Shown here: one piece after another, positions 56,327-59,934 of the stretch
How the letters are laid out: every line of letters starts with the position of its first letter
Position numbering within the stretch: the first letter of the stretch is position 1
Source of the DNA: Olivibacter domesticus
Lineage (GTDB): Bacteria; Bacteroidota; Bacteroidia; Sphingobacteriales; Sphingobacteriaceae
Direction: 5' to 3'
DNA: 64,000 nt
Assembly (NCBI RefSeq): GCF_900109575.1
Contig: NZ_FOAF01000004.1
Location: forward strand, 186,001-250,000
The notes under the pieces: generated by a model
Seen by the model: only the letters and a program-made list of their open reading frames with translations
Database searches by the model: none
What the model was told of the DNA's origin: nothing
Position numbers and translations under genes: made by a program

Positions 56327-57508
56327 CTACGAAAGCTTTTGAAAGGTTCGCCACCACAAATCTGGCATTTCGCCCTCAATAGCCATTAAATAATCTTCAT
56401 ATCTGCACGGAACCAAATGGAAGCGTTCATTCACTGATTTTGTATTAGGATAAGGTACTTGCATCCACCAGCGATCTGTTTTTTTACTTTTAATGAATAT
56501 GAGTTCGTAGCTATCATCGTTTAATGATGCACGATAAGTCACATAAGAAGATTTAGGCTGTAATGGAAAATCCTTCTTCCGATTATAAAATCCATCGACA
56601 AAATACCATAACATTTGAGCGAGTAAGGTGGCCGTTTGGCCATTTTGGTCAAATGCCGGATTGAATTCATAAAACCCAATAGAGCTTAATTTATCACTCA
56701 TTCCGGCATACCTAGATAGTTGACAAGCCTCTTCTCCATAAAAGCCGTTTGGTGAGGCATTTCCGTTTCCACAGGCATCAGTAGATCGAATAGCACCTAT
56801 ATCAAAGCTGAGCATATCTGCATTTCGGATTACGGGTTCCGCCTGATCTGTATGTCTGGCAAATAATCCCAGCCGATAAGAATCGAAGTACAATTTATCC
56901 ATCGCTTTTAAGCTGTCTTGGCTTACGTAATAGGTTTGATAGCCGATATTACTATAATTAAACAAAAAATTTGGCTGATGAAGCATGATCTTTGTCAAAT
57001 AGGTTTGAGAGTTCACCTCATTATCATCATCAACTTCTTCATCTAAATCAAGGTGAGAGTCAATTACCACAATATCGACCTTCTGTTCCAATTTTTCATA
57101 TCCTTGGAATTGAGCGTACGTGACATCCTGTCCTCCCCCAATTATTACGGGAATTATATTTTTTTTTATTAATTCCTCTACAACAGTTTTTACTGCCACA
57201 TAAGTGTCCTTTGCGGTATTACCAGCTTTGATATTACCGAAGTCTGCAATCTTTATCGCGTAATCTCCTTTGTGCAAACTATACAGTTTCTCCCTCACAT
57301 AATCCGGTGCCAAGGAACAACCCTGATTATCTACAGCATTTCGATCTTCCATCACGCCTATAATTACTAAATCAAACTGCTCTTTCTCATGATCTGGAAA
57401 TTCATCTGTAAAAACTTGTATATGTGTTCCAAGCTGACTGGTATAAAAACCTTTAGCGGGAATAAATTTCTGAATATCTACGGGAGCAAAAAAATCAACT
57501 AATGACAT
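56327..57508 (-). CDS. Arginase/ureohydrolase-fold protein annotated as formimidoylglutamase type
   Basis: The 393-residue protein has the arginase fold, but with altered metal motifs. The first motif reads IGGGQDVTYA, where arginases have GGDHS, so the His is Gln. The DAHxD motif is intact as DSHLD. The DxDxxDP motif reads SFDIGAIRSTD, so the second Asp is Gly. Bacteroidota relatives are commonly called formimidoylglutamase; whether they hydrolyse formiminoglutamate, or anything, is open. No histidine-degradation genes are near. Cytoplasmic. It is divergent from the epimerase gene. Confidence 0.75.
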   Translation of the reverse strand: MSLVDFFAPVDIQKFIPAKGFYTSQLGTHIQVFTDEFPDHEKEQFDLVIIGVMEDRNAVDNQGCSLAPDYVREKLYSLHKGDYAIKIADFGNIKAGNTAKDTYVAVKTVVEELIKKNIIPVIIGGGQDVTYAQFQGYEKLEQKVDIVVIDSHLDLDEEVDDDNEVNSQTYLTKIMLHQPNFLFNYSNIGYQTYYVSQDSLKAMDKLYFDSYRLGLFARHTDQAEPVIRNADMLSFDIGAIRSTDACGNGNASPNGFYGEEACQLSRYAGMSDKLSSIGFYEFNPAFDQNGQTATLLAQMLWYFVDGFYNRKKDFPLQPKSSYVTYRASLNDDSYELIFIKSKKTDRWWMQVPYPNTKSVNERFHLVPCRYEDYLMAIEGEMPDLWWRTFQKLS

Positions 57509-57613: not shown

Positions 57614-58579
57614 GTGATATTAGTTACTGGCGGAACAGGTTTTTTGGGTTCGACGCTTATAAGGCAATTACTTGCTCGCGGGCATCAGCTACGGGCAACT
57701 AAGCGCGACTCCTCTTTCATTCCCGCCGACATTGCCAATCATCATCATATACAATGGGTAACGGCTGATATTAATAATTTCTTTGAATTAAAAGATGCCT
57801 TTGAGGGAGTGACAAAAGTATACCATGGCGCTGCTCTTGTTTCTTTTGAACCTTCTGAAAAAAAAGCGCTCTTAAAAGTAAATGCCGAAGGTACGGCTCA
57901 TATTGTAAATCTTTGTATACAACATAATGCCCGCTTACTTCATATAAGCTCAGTAGCCGCCATCGGAGGCCCGAAGCCGGGAACAGCCGAAGCAGATGAA
58001 AATGATATCTGGGAATTTGACGGTACGCAGCATGGCTATTCTATTTCCAAATATGAAGCCGAAATGGAGGTTTGGAGAGGTATTGTCGAAGGATTAAATG
58101 CCGTTATTGTTAATCCATCGCTCATCATCGGGCAGCAGGCAGGACATGAAAGCACTGGTGCTATTTTTAAACTATTAAAAGACGGACTTCGTTATTATAC
58201 GACAGGTAGCGTCGGCCTTGTCGATGTAGACGATGTTGCAAGAGCTGCCATTGTACTAATGGAAAAAGAAGATATTCAAGCGGAACGTTTTATTATTAGC
58301 AACACAAACATGGGTTATCGAGAGCTTTTCTCCATATGCGCTAATTATATGGGTATTCCCGCACCAAGTAAAAATGCTACACGACCTATGTTAGGCATTG
58401 CGTGGCGAGCAGCTAAAGTCATGTCATGGTTTACCGGAAAAAAACCTGGATTAACGAGAGATACCGCGCATTCATCTTTAATGAAACAAGCTTTTTCGAA
58501 TACAAAATTTAGGGAACGGTTGAACTTTACATACAAACCCTTAGATAAGACTTTAAAAGAAATATGCGAACATATATAA
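57614..58579 (+). CDS. NAD-dependent epimerase/dehydratase family protein (extended SDR)
   Basis: The 321-residue extended short-chain dehydrogenase starts with GTG (codon for residue 1, MILVTGGTGFLGST). The only nearby ATG, at about 57588, meets a stop after five codons. The NAD(P) motif is TGGTGFLG (5-12). The catalytic Tyr-Lys lies in GYSISKYEAE, with Ser in HISSVAAIGG. Similarity is to dihydroflavonol-reductase/3-beta-HSD-like proteins. Substrate unknown. A complete -33/-7 promoter precedes it. Confidence 0.87.
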   Translation: MILVTGGTGFLGSTLIRQLLARGHQLRATKRDSSFIPADIANHHHIQWVTADINNFFELKDAFEGVTKVYHGAALVSFEPSEKKALLKVNAEGTAHIVNLCIQHNARLLHISSVAAIGGPKPGTAEADENDIWEFDGTQHGYSISKYEAEMEVWRGIVEGLNAVIVNPSLIIGQQAGHESTGAIFKLLKDGLRYYTTGSVGLVDVDDVARAAIVLMEKEDIQAERFIISNTNMGYRELFSICANYMGIPAPSKNATRPMLGIAWRAAKVMSWFTGKKPGLTRDTAHSSLMKQAFSNTKFRERLNFTYKPLDKTLKEICEHI

Positions 58580-58641: not shown

Positions 58642-59934
58642 ATGAAGCATTACTACATCATTGATTTCGACAGTACCTTTACACAAGTTGAAGCGCTTGA
58701 TGAATTAGCCCGAATCTCTCTTGAACATCACCCTGCAAGAGAACTTATCTATAACGAAATAGAAAGACTCACCAACGCAGCAATGGAAGGGAACATCTCC
58801 TTTCGCGAAAGTTTAGCCGGCCGCGTTAAACTTCTTCAAGCTAATAAGTCCCATTTAGATAAATTAATAGCGATTTTAAAGAAAAAAGTTTCCTCCTCTT
58901 TTTCACGTAATAGAGATTTTCTTAAAGCCCATAACGAGGACGTGTTAATCGTTTCAGGTGGCTTTAAAGAATTCATAACCCCTGTAGTAACCCCATATGG
59001 CATAAAAACAGAAAACATTTATGCCAACACGTTTCTTTTTGATCCAGCGGGAAATATCATTGGCTATGATGAGTCAAATCCTCTTTCGGATGAAGGTGGA
59101 AAAGTAAAACTTTTAAAAACCATGGATCTTGATGGGACTATTTACGGAATAGGTGACGGTTATTCTGATTTTCAGTTGAAAGAATCTGGATTAATTGAGA
59201 AATTTTACGCATTTACCGAAAATATTGAACGCAAATCAGTCTCAGAAAAAGCAGATCACATCACGCCAAGTTTAGATGAATTTTTATATGTAAATCATCT
59301 ACCAAGAGCCATTTCCTATCCAAAGAATAGGATACTATGTTTAATCGTTGGAGATGTTCCTGAGATTTCGGTGCACTTGCTTAGAAGGGACGGTTTTTCT
59401 ATTCGCCATAAAGAAACACTAGAAGAGAAATACCTGAAAGATGTTGGAATGTTATTGATTGCAAATGGTATAAGTGTAAACAATGAGCAATTAAAACAAG
59501 CTGAAAAGCTAAAGACAATTGGCTATTTGGGAAATAGCAAAGGAGTCATAAATCGTGACCTATGCAATGAAATGGGTATTGTAATTTTTGACGATAAGAA
59601 AGGTAAAAAGCGCAGTGGAGAATTTATACCGAAAAGAATGGCTGATTTCATTAATAAGGGTGATACAGCTATGAGTAGAAATTTCCCTAACATGCAACTC
59701 CCAAGAATGCACCAGGCGCATCGTTTAATTCATATCCATCAAAATGTACCTGGAATCATGGCTCAAATCAATAATGTTTTTGCCGAACACCACATTAACA
59801 TTGTAGCTCAATTTTTAATGACAAAGGGAAATATAGGCTATGTTATAACTGACATAAGTAAAGGATACGACGATAAATTATTAAAGGAGCTTAAGCAGAT
59901 TATTACCACCATTAAGCTAAGAATATTGTACTAA
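58642..59934 (+). CDS. Phosphoserine phosphatase fused to a PGDH remnant with ACT domain (SerB-SerA fusion lacking the NAD domain)
   Basis: Residues 1-210 are a SerB-type HAD phosphatase: motif I DFDST (D8, D10), VSGGF, GGKVKLL, GDGYSDFQL. Residues about 225-340 resemble the N-terminal substrate-side part of D-3-phosphoglycerate dehydrogenase (LLIANGISVNNEQLKQAEKL, IGYLGNSKGVINRDLC). Residues 358-430 match the ACT end of SerA: HRLIHIHQNVPGIMAQINNV, ending RILY. The NAD-binding Rossmann domain and catalytic Arg-Glu-His set of SerA are absent. So the active part is the phosphatase, and the rest probably a serine-sensing regulatory domain. Overlaps a terminator stem. Confidence 0.85.
   Translation: MKHYYIIDFDSTFTQVEALDELARISLEHHPARELIYNEIERLTNAAMEGNISFRESLAGRVKLLQANKSHLDKLIAILKKKVSSSFSRNRDFLKAHNEDVLIVSGGFKEFITPVVTPYGIKTENIYANTFLFDPAGNIIGYDESNPLSDEGGKVKLLKTMDLDGTIYGIGDGYSDFQLKESGLIEKFYAFTENIERKSVSEKADHITPSLDEFLYVNHLPRAISYPKNRILCLIVGDVPEISVHLLRRDGFSIRHKETLEEKYLKDVGMLLIANGISVNNEQLKQAEKLKTIGYLGNSKGVINRDLCNEMGIVIFDDKKGKKRSGEFIPKRMADFINKGDTAMSRNFPNMQLPRMHQAHRLIHIHQNVPGIMAQINNVFAEHHINIVAQFLMTKGNIGYVITDISKGYDDKLLKELKQIITTIKLRILY

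Follow-up and report, generated by a model that had tools for sequence, protein, structure and literature searches.

A 430-amino-acid protein of Olivibacter domesticus joins a phosphoserine phosphatase to what is left of a phosphoglycerate dehydrogenase (PGDH, SerA): the two flanking parts of the substrate-binding domain and the ACT domain are in place and the whole NAD-binding domain is missing, an architecture confirmed by sequence comparison. The protein is encoded in the window, by which we mean the whole 64,000-nucleotide stretch of DNA that was analysed. Its phosphatase is probably the serine-feedback point of the pathway, the sensor having moved from the first step of serine synthesis to the last, a reading drawn from the residues that were kept and lost. 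Comparison across related families slightly favours a broader view in which the fused first-step enzyme was retired repeatedly, by deletion twice and by decay twice more, with the serine sensor kept each time and now sitting on the last-step phosphatase. Feedback control would then have moved along a pathway in a repeatable way, with intermediates still alive today, and the reduced product would since have passed horizontally to Chitinophaga.

A phosphoserine phosphatase joined to a SerA remnant

The protein is encoded by a single ATG-initiated open reading frame with exact bounds (Table 1). An earlier note on this DNA had proposed a SerB-SerA fusion without the NAD-binding half of SerA, and Pfam and NCBIfam domains, profile alignment and structure superposition agree on this, the gap being the NAD domain. 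Pfam matched HAD at residues 7-179 and ACT at residues 362-425; the 2-Hacid_dh family (PF00389) remained below threshold at residues 234-317 when the single sequence was searched (E 0.0042), and the NAD-binding family (PF02826) had no match in the 430-aa protein. Among NCBIfam models, serB/HAD-IB covered residues 4-183, and the best stretch for SerA model NF008759 paired residues 323-430 with profile positions 303-410. The top NCBIfam match of the protein was a PGDH model, far under its cut-off (145 of 404 bits), which calls for caution in annotation, as a PGDH model is the best match of a protein without a dehydrogenase domain.

Table 1 Features of the open reading frame, in window positions
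Feature	Position	Strand	Extent or evidence
Whole ORF, phosphoserine phosphatase and SerA remnant with ACT domain	58642..59934	+	430 aa plus stop
HAD-IB phosphoserine phosphatase domain, residues 3-215	58648..59286	+	Pfam, NCBIfam, structure match to 3kd3 and human PSP
SerA substrate-binding domain, N-terminal half, residues 224-325	59311..59616	+	hhalign to SerA 3-111; R60-equivalent Arg absent
Junction after residue 325; the NAD-binding domain (192-193 residues) sits here in full-length fusions	59616..59617	+	
SerA substrate-binding domain, C-terminal strip and linker, residues 326-357	59617..59712	+	NF008759 profile, structure superposition
ACT domain, residues 358-430	59713..59931	+	Pfam; residue table against E. 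coli SerA

The relation of residues 225-340 to SerA, which the earlier note had set as the point on which its reading could fail, was recovered by hhalign: a profile of the short form (residues 222-330) aligned to standalone SerA 3-111 with a probability of 98.6 and an E-value of 1.1e-15, and the HAD part, compared with SerA as a control, was negative with a probability of 0.8. A search of the frame for an intact NAD domain, the other point so named, found none. Against full-length fusions, one block of 192-193 residues was absent after residue 325 in all seven comparisons. The NAD domain is likewise absent in all 18 short rows of a residue table (44 rows: 18 short, 5 from family f11 and 15 full-length read in detail, among others; codes of this kind are our handles for families, genomes and loci). 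In the same 18 rows R60, R240, E269 and H292 of the dehydrogenase are all gone and the R60 position is replaced, in line with the claim that the NAD domain with the catalytic residues had been skipped. Judged by these sequence marks (the NAD domain with its GxGxxG, R240, E269 and H292, and R60), the 430-aa protein should not be a dehydrogenase. Residues 274-277, at the former phosphate site of the dehydrogenase, vary among 80 named loci (the best 80 of 577 relatives), and the pseudo substrate-binding part is the fastest evolving, with a mean pairwise identity of 0.58 compared with 0.77 for HAD and 0.70 for ACT. Analysis of dN/dS gave no ratio, synonymous sites being saturated even within a genus.

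The phosphatase half is intact by its sequence marks. HAD motifs I-IV read DxDxT, S, K and GDxxxD, and D8, D10, S105, K154, D172 and D176 are invariant in 80/80 named loci (best 80 of 577). Model TIGR01488 scored above its cut-off (57 of 45 bits) and the serB model TIGR00338 below (66 of 144 bits); these marks place the protein with the HAD-IB phosphoserine phosphatases. It is the sole gene of its genome that matches TIGR00338 over most of the model (6-195 of 219), the other HAD matches to the serB model being partial, and the sole gene that matches the 430-aa protein is its own. Protein and serB-model searches of the genome found neither a second SerB nor a second ACT-bearing SerA, and by these searches the protein is the sole evident phosphoserine phosphatase of the genome.

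The serine site of the ACT domain is retained

Residues R361, H366, N368 and N386 correspond to E. coli SerA R339, H344, N346 and N364. They are identical in 80/80 named loci (best 80 of 577), and the four positions are kept in 44/44 rows of the residue table, whether full-length, decayed or short. The named loci are the nearest relatives (63-76% identical), and their invariance is less telling than the agreement of families f14 and f11. By these residues the ACT domain carries the serine ligands of a type II PGDH; the earlier note had called the tail serine-binding and regulatory, and the site for it is there.

According to the part of PMC6300728 available, serine sits at the ACT interface of E. 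coli PGDH, bound by H344, N346 and N364'; side chains grip its amino and carboxyl groups, and its hydroxyl is reached via water only. Serine turns the unit of substrate and ACT domains against the NAD domain; the ACT domains form one of the two subunit interfaces, the NAD-domain surface being the other (PMC6300728, same part). The same source describes non-serine-binding ACT domains of mammals, in which the ligand residues are changed. Because such non-sensing domains drifted, the retention seen here argues for a site in use.

Predicted structure of the short form

An AlphaFold2 model of the monomer was built from 53 sequences, the protein itself (P0001) and 52 of the 80 named loci, with a mean pLDDT of 84.6 and a pTM of 0.64. 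Confidence is low at about residues 191-230, the joint between phosphatase and tail and the weakest part of the model. Residues 1-226 superpose on phosphoserine phosphatases over 201-209 residues (Francisella 3kd3, Z 20.4; human PSP, Z 20.0), which share the HAD domain but are without the tail. Residues 227-430 superpose on SerA 7-410 (2p9e_B, 203 residues, 1.6 Å, Z 27.4), and across the SerA structures 2p9e and 3k5p the tail fits over 203-204 residues at 1.6-1.7 Å with Z about 27. Whole-length superposition on SerA by Foldseek was poor (TM 0.23-0.24, rmsd above 20 Å), as would be expected for a chain whose first half differs from SerA; the good fit appears only in an alignment that skips phosphatase and NAD domain. 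In the model, ACT sits against the substrate domain as it does in SerA, even with the NAD domain missing, and the predicted substrate-domain fold persists despite the loss of R60.

The short form in Sphingobacteriaceae and its apparent transfer to Chitinophaga

The short form is not peculiar to O. domesticus: it is the form of nearly all Sphingobacteriaceae sampled. Among 60 relatives it was found, from residue 1-4 to 430, in 33 of the 37 genomes of the family. In a wider family sample 387 of 399 genomes matched, 386 of them with one match each, at E-values no higher than 4e-155. These 386 were scored as short form, since full-length fusions gave two matches, none better than 1.8e-93; match positions cover part of the 387 matching genomes, and one of those covered (G715) has an inner stop. 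G742 gave two matches (best E 1.4e-92) and may hold a full-length or contig-broken gene. No match was found in 12/399 family genomes, nine of them in three small-genome genera (g11, g23 and g24). An assembly artefact or recent deletion is ruled out by the 33/37 genomes, which include the one-contig genomes G003 and G019, and by the 399-genome sample.

Labels among the best 80 of 577 relatives were Sphingobacterium, Parapedobacter, Pedobacter, Mucilaginibacter, Arcticibacter, Pararcticibacter and Pseudopedobacter, together with unspecified Sphingobacteriales, Sphingobacteriaceae and Bacteroidota bacteria, two Chitinophaga and one 'Flavobacteriaceae bacterium'; by these labels the family is taken to be Sphingobacteriaceae. 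Two neighbouring genes, named by eye, recur in these 80 named loci (best 80 of 577): an arginase/formiminoglutamase-like gene (window 56327-57508) in 66/80 and a NAD-dependent epimerase-like gene (window 57614-58579) in 67/80. Both lie upstream in the loci with positions seen, and neither has an evident link to serine synthesis.

The two Chitinophaga short forms (L129 and L133, from C. eiseniae and C. niastensis) nest in the tree within the Sphingobacteriaceae clade. A topology constrained to unite the family without them was rejected (AU p 0.00016), and the two loci share 0/5 flanking genes with the window locus. Nesting, rejected constraint and foreign flanks together point to an apparent horizontal transfer of the short form to Chitinophaga. 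Both genomes also encode a standalone 411-aa SerA with ACT, and it is possible from their gene content that they have serine sensors on the first and last enzymes at once.

Four family genomes of 2.0-2.4 Mb (G014, G026, G027 and G036) keep serC and the short PGDH and have no full-span SerB-like protein; either another phosphatase acts in them or SerC and PGDH serve another pathway. In all four short-form-less family genomes checked, from three genera, serC and the PGDH-like gene are present and no other clear SerB was detected, which counts against the feedback reading: the link between SerC and PGDH-like presence and the short form is not absolute.

Full-length fusions and routes of loss

In an even sample of the class, 78 of 395 genomes matched the 430-aa protein. 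By frame and two-piece match, 49 of the 78 hold a full-length SerB-SerA fusion, 47 in one frame of 627-732 aa and two broken over contigs; they come from 12 families, those of f42 and f46 being included on frame and matches. The 78 also include 15 Sphingobacteriaceae short forms, five f11 proteins and two genomes with a match to the SerA end only. Full-length fusions (e.g. L040, L041 and L173) have the same domain order as the short form, are 44-51% identical to it (five aligned) and begin the tail in the same way, with SYPKNRI or SYPKSRI. Unlike the short form they have the NAD domain, and 14 of 15 full-length rows keep R60, R240, E269 and H292; in f25 (one genome, full-length frame) G stands at both R60 and R240. 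The suggestion of the earlier note that the protein is the remnant of a full-length fusion is thus upheld by full-length forms in 12 other families, among which the short forms branch, and the search for intact fusions and short forms that it had called for indicates that loss most likely occurred more than once.

All five f11 proteins lack R60, R240, E269 and H292, and their NAD domain is still recognisable (PF02826 at E 5.8e-22 in L159). In these proteins (L159-L163, 597-616 aa) the nucleotide-loop glycines of the dehydrogenase domain are kept, and the pseudo-dehydrogenase might still bind nucleotide. Family f14 has a short form in three genomes, one whole, one apparently frame-broken and one broken over contigs. 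In f14 genome G092 the short-form gene (L158) and the PGDH gene (C1:2117090-2118042) both appear split across two frames, a pattern suggestive of sequencing errors in the assembly that shift the frame. In four f12 genomes of one genus, SerB (231-233 aa) and SerA are adjacent genes, with a SerA of 407 aa in three and a cut one in the fourth; in the tree, three of these split pairs (L154, L155 and L157) nest within a clade of fusions, and fission of a fusion is the likely origin.

The tree of shared columns held 15 of the 33 family rows, the two Chitinophaga, one of three f14 short forms, 15 of 49 full-length fusions, all five f11 proteins and three of the four split-gene loci; L158 (frame-broken), G128 (broken over contigs) and L156 (unknown bases) were left out. 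The f14 short form falls among full-length fusions, a 100/99 branch away from Sphingobacteriaceae. Forcing the two together cost 30.5 log units (AU p 0.025), in a test whose groups were named after the tree had been seen and in which L039 is a long branch; with that reservation, a single deletion for all short forms is disfavoured. The f11 proteins adjoin Sphingobacteriaceae at 79/78, which suggests that the two may share a first step of decay. From these alignments and the tree, the NAD domain was most likely deleted twice, in Sphingobacteriaceae and in f14, and the dehydrogenase most likely decayed in place in f11 and, in one genome, in f25.

A probable separate first-step enzyme beside serC

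The O. domesticus genome has one serC, directly followed by the gene for a 315-aa protein that has no domains other than the substrate and NAD ones. Its best match is TIGR01327, a model of 525 positions, below cut-off (289 of 454 bits), and it is under the cut-off of a second PGDH equivalog model too (200 of 404 bits). From its sequence and position this protein is likely the real PGDH of the genome. Five strong NAD-domain proteins were found in the genome, and by frame length none has room for ACT (318-348 aa, and 315 aa for the one beside serC). A second PGDH-like protein of 318 aa (P0004; contig C15, L055:5171-6127) lies near genes that by eye are ksgA-like and pdxA-like; it was set aside as PGDH on its lower TIGR01327 score (248 vs 289 bits) and the pdxA-like neighbour, and may be a vitamin B6 enzyme. 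SerC and the PGDH-like protein next to it may also serve vitamin B6 synthesis. The 315-aa protein has counterparts in 35 of the 37 family genomes, beside serC by coordinates in 35/35; of the two genomes that lack it, one is 71% complete and one lies in 230 contigs. According to the available part of PMC6300728, type III PGDHs, which lack ACT, are not regulated by serine.

A relative of this enzyme was counted, at E 1e-60 or better, in 48 genomes (46 of the 63 genomes of other families that matched the 430-aa protein, plus both Chitinophaga); it was present in 23 and absent in 25. Such a spare PGDH was found in f11 (4/5), f14 (3/3) and f25 (1/1) and in 15/15 genomes across f4, f10, f12 (the fused genus), f42, f46, f47 and f54. 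At the same threshold it was absent from f2 (0/7, one of them fusion-less), f15 (0/5), f49 (0/2), f68 (0/4), the split-gene f12 genomes (0/4) and Chitinophaga (0/2). The spare enzyme thus occurs in all 4 reduced families as opposed to 7 of 11 other searched families with full-length fusions, and one of the five f11 genomes has a decayed fusion and no spare. Loss appears to have occurred in families where the spare exists, yet the spare does not force loss, and the families are too few to prove a link.

Proposed serine feedback at the last step and alternative readings

The usual account of amino-acid pathways places the brake on their committed first step, and the phosphatase step of serine synthesis is irreversible. 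Here an unregulated PGDH appears to carry out the first step, and the sensor of the old regulated PGDH is found on the phosphatase. In the history that we envisage, SerB was once fused to an ACT-bearing PGDH of type II in a single bifunctional protein. Given a separate type III enzyme, encoded next to serC and devoid of ACT, the fused dehydrogenase would have been dispensable and would have lost its catalytic residues first and the NAD domain next. What remained would serve the phosphatase, the substrate-binding flanks as a strut and ACT as its serine sensor: when L-serine binds where two ACT domains meet, the strut would rotate and the phosphatase would slow down, giving feedback at the last step. 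We propose a serine-responsive phosphatase because the ligand residues, in contrast to the variable old phosphate site, have been kept; that the protein dimerises by its ACT domains, that it binds serine, that the effect is inhibition and not activation, and in what order the events took place are what we infer beyond this. The earlier note had regarded feedback on the last step as unusual, a view to be corrected by a precedent: in the part of PMC10564941 available, mycobacterial SerB2, a phosphoserine phosphatase with ACT domains, is inhibited by L-serine with a Ki of 22 µM.

The SerA tail could instead be a structural remnant that oligomerises or stabilises the phosphatase and senses no serine. 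The substrate-binding part is indeed the least conserved (0.58 identity), and ACT domains provide a subunit interface in E. coli PGDH (PMC6300728, in part). Oligomerisation, however, needs no serine-ligand side chains, yet these are identical in 80/80 named loci (best 80 of 577) and are also kept in the separately reduced f14 and f11, whereas non-sensing mammalian ACT domains carry changes at these positions (PMC6300728, in part). We regard this reading as improbable.

There is only a slim chance that the tail works in trans, docking on the ACT-less PGDH or on SerC and thereby bringing serine control or channelling. IlvN is such a regulatory subunit for acetohydroxyacid synthase. The PGDH-like protein has no ACT domain of its own, and both genes co-occur in most family genomes; but they lie on different contigs (C9 vs C12), and the NAD-domain surface, the other subunit interface in the available part of PMC6300728, is just the part deleted.

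Least probable is a tail whose ACT domain responds to serine, or to a different amino acid (glycine or cysteine, for example), by activating the phosphatase. In E. coli PGDH the ligand hydroxyl is contacted only via water (PMC6300728, in part), but activation of the last step by its end product would seem to have no evident use, and the closest functional precedent, SerB2, is inhibited (PMC10564941, in part).

Relation to known systems

Residues 226-430 share with type II PGDH (E. coli SerA; 1psd, 2p9c) the substrate-binding flanks, the ACT domain and the serine-ligand residues, at 30% identity and 1.7 Å over 203 residues for 2p9c. Lacking the NAD domain, R240, E269, H292 and R60, the short form should not be a dehydrogenase. 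Like SerB2/MaSerB (3p96, 5jlp), it is an ACT-bearing phosphoserine phosphatase, and its HAD domain matches 5jlp residues 180-389; SerB2 has two ACT domains ahead of HAD, whereas here a single one stands behind it, within a decommissioned dehydrogenase. With one C-terminal ACT domain, the protein is by its architecture not of the SerB2 type. ACT-bearing phosphoserine phosphatases were already known, and what appears to be new here is one whose regulator is a decommissioned SerA.

Neither the SerB-SerA fusion nor the short form appeared in a title or the start of an abstract in the literature searched, most subscription journals lying outside that search, and neither is described in the available parts of PMC7311316, PMC5715807, PMC2705460, PMC6300728, PMC10564941 and PMC5764234. 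Related families still carry the full-length, decayed and deleted forms, and the order of fusion, redundancy, decay and deletion can therefore be tested directly, as can the onset of serine control over the phosphatase. Another phosphatase-dehydrogenase fusion is seen in the Dunaliella glycerol-3-phosphate dehydrogenase (PDB 6iuy), which contains a SerB-like stretch.
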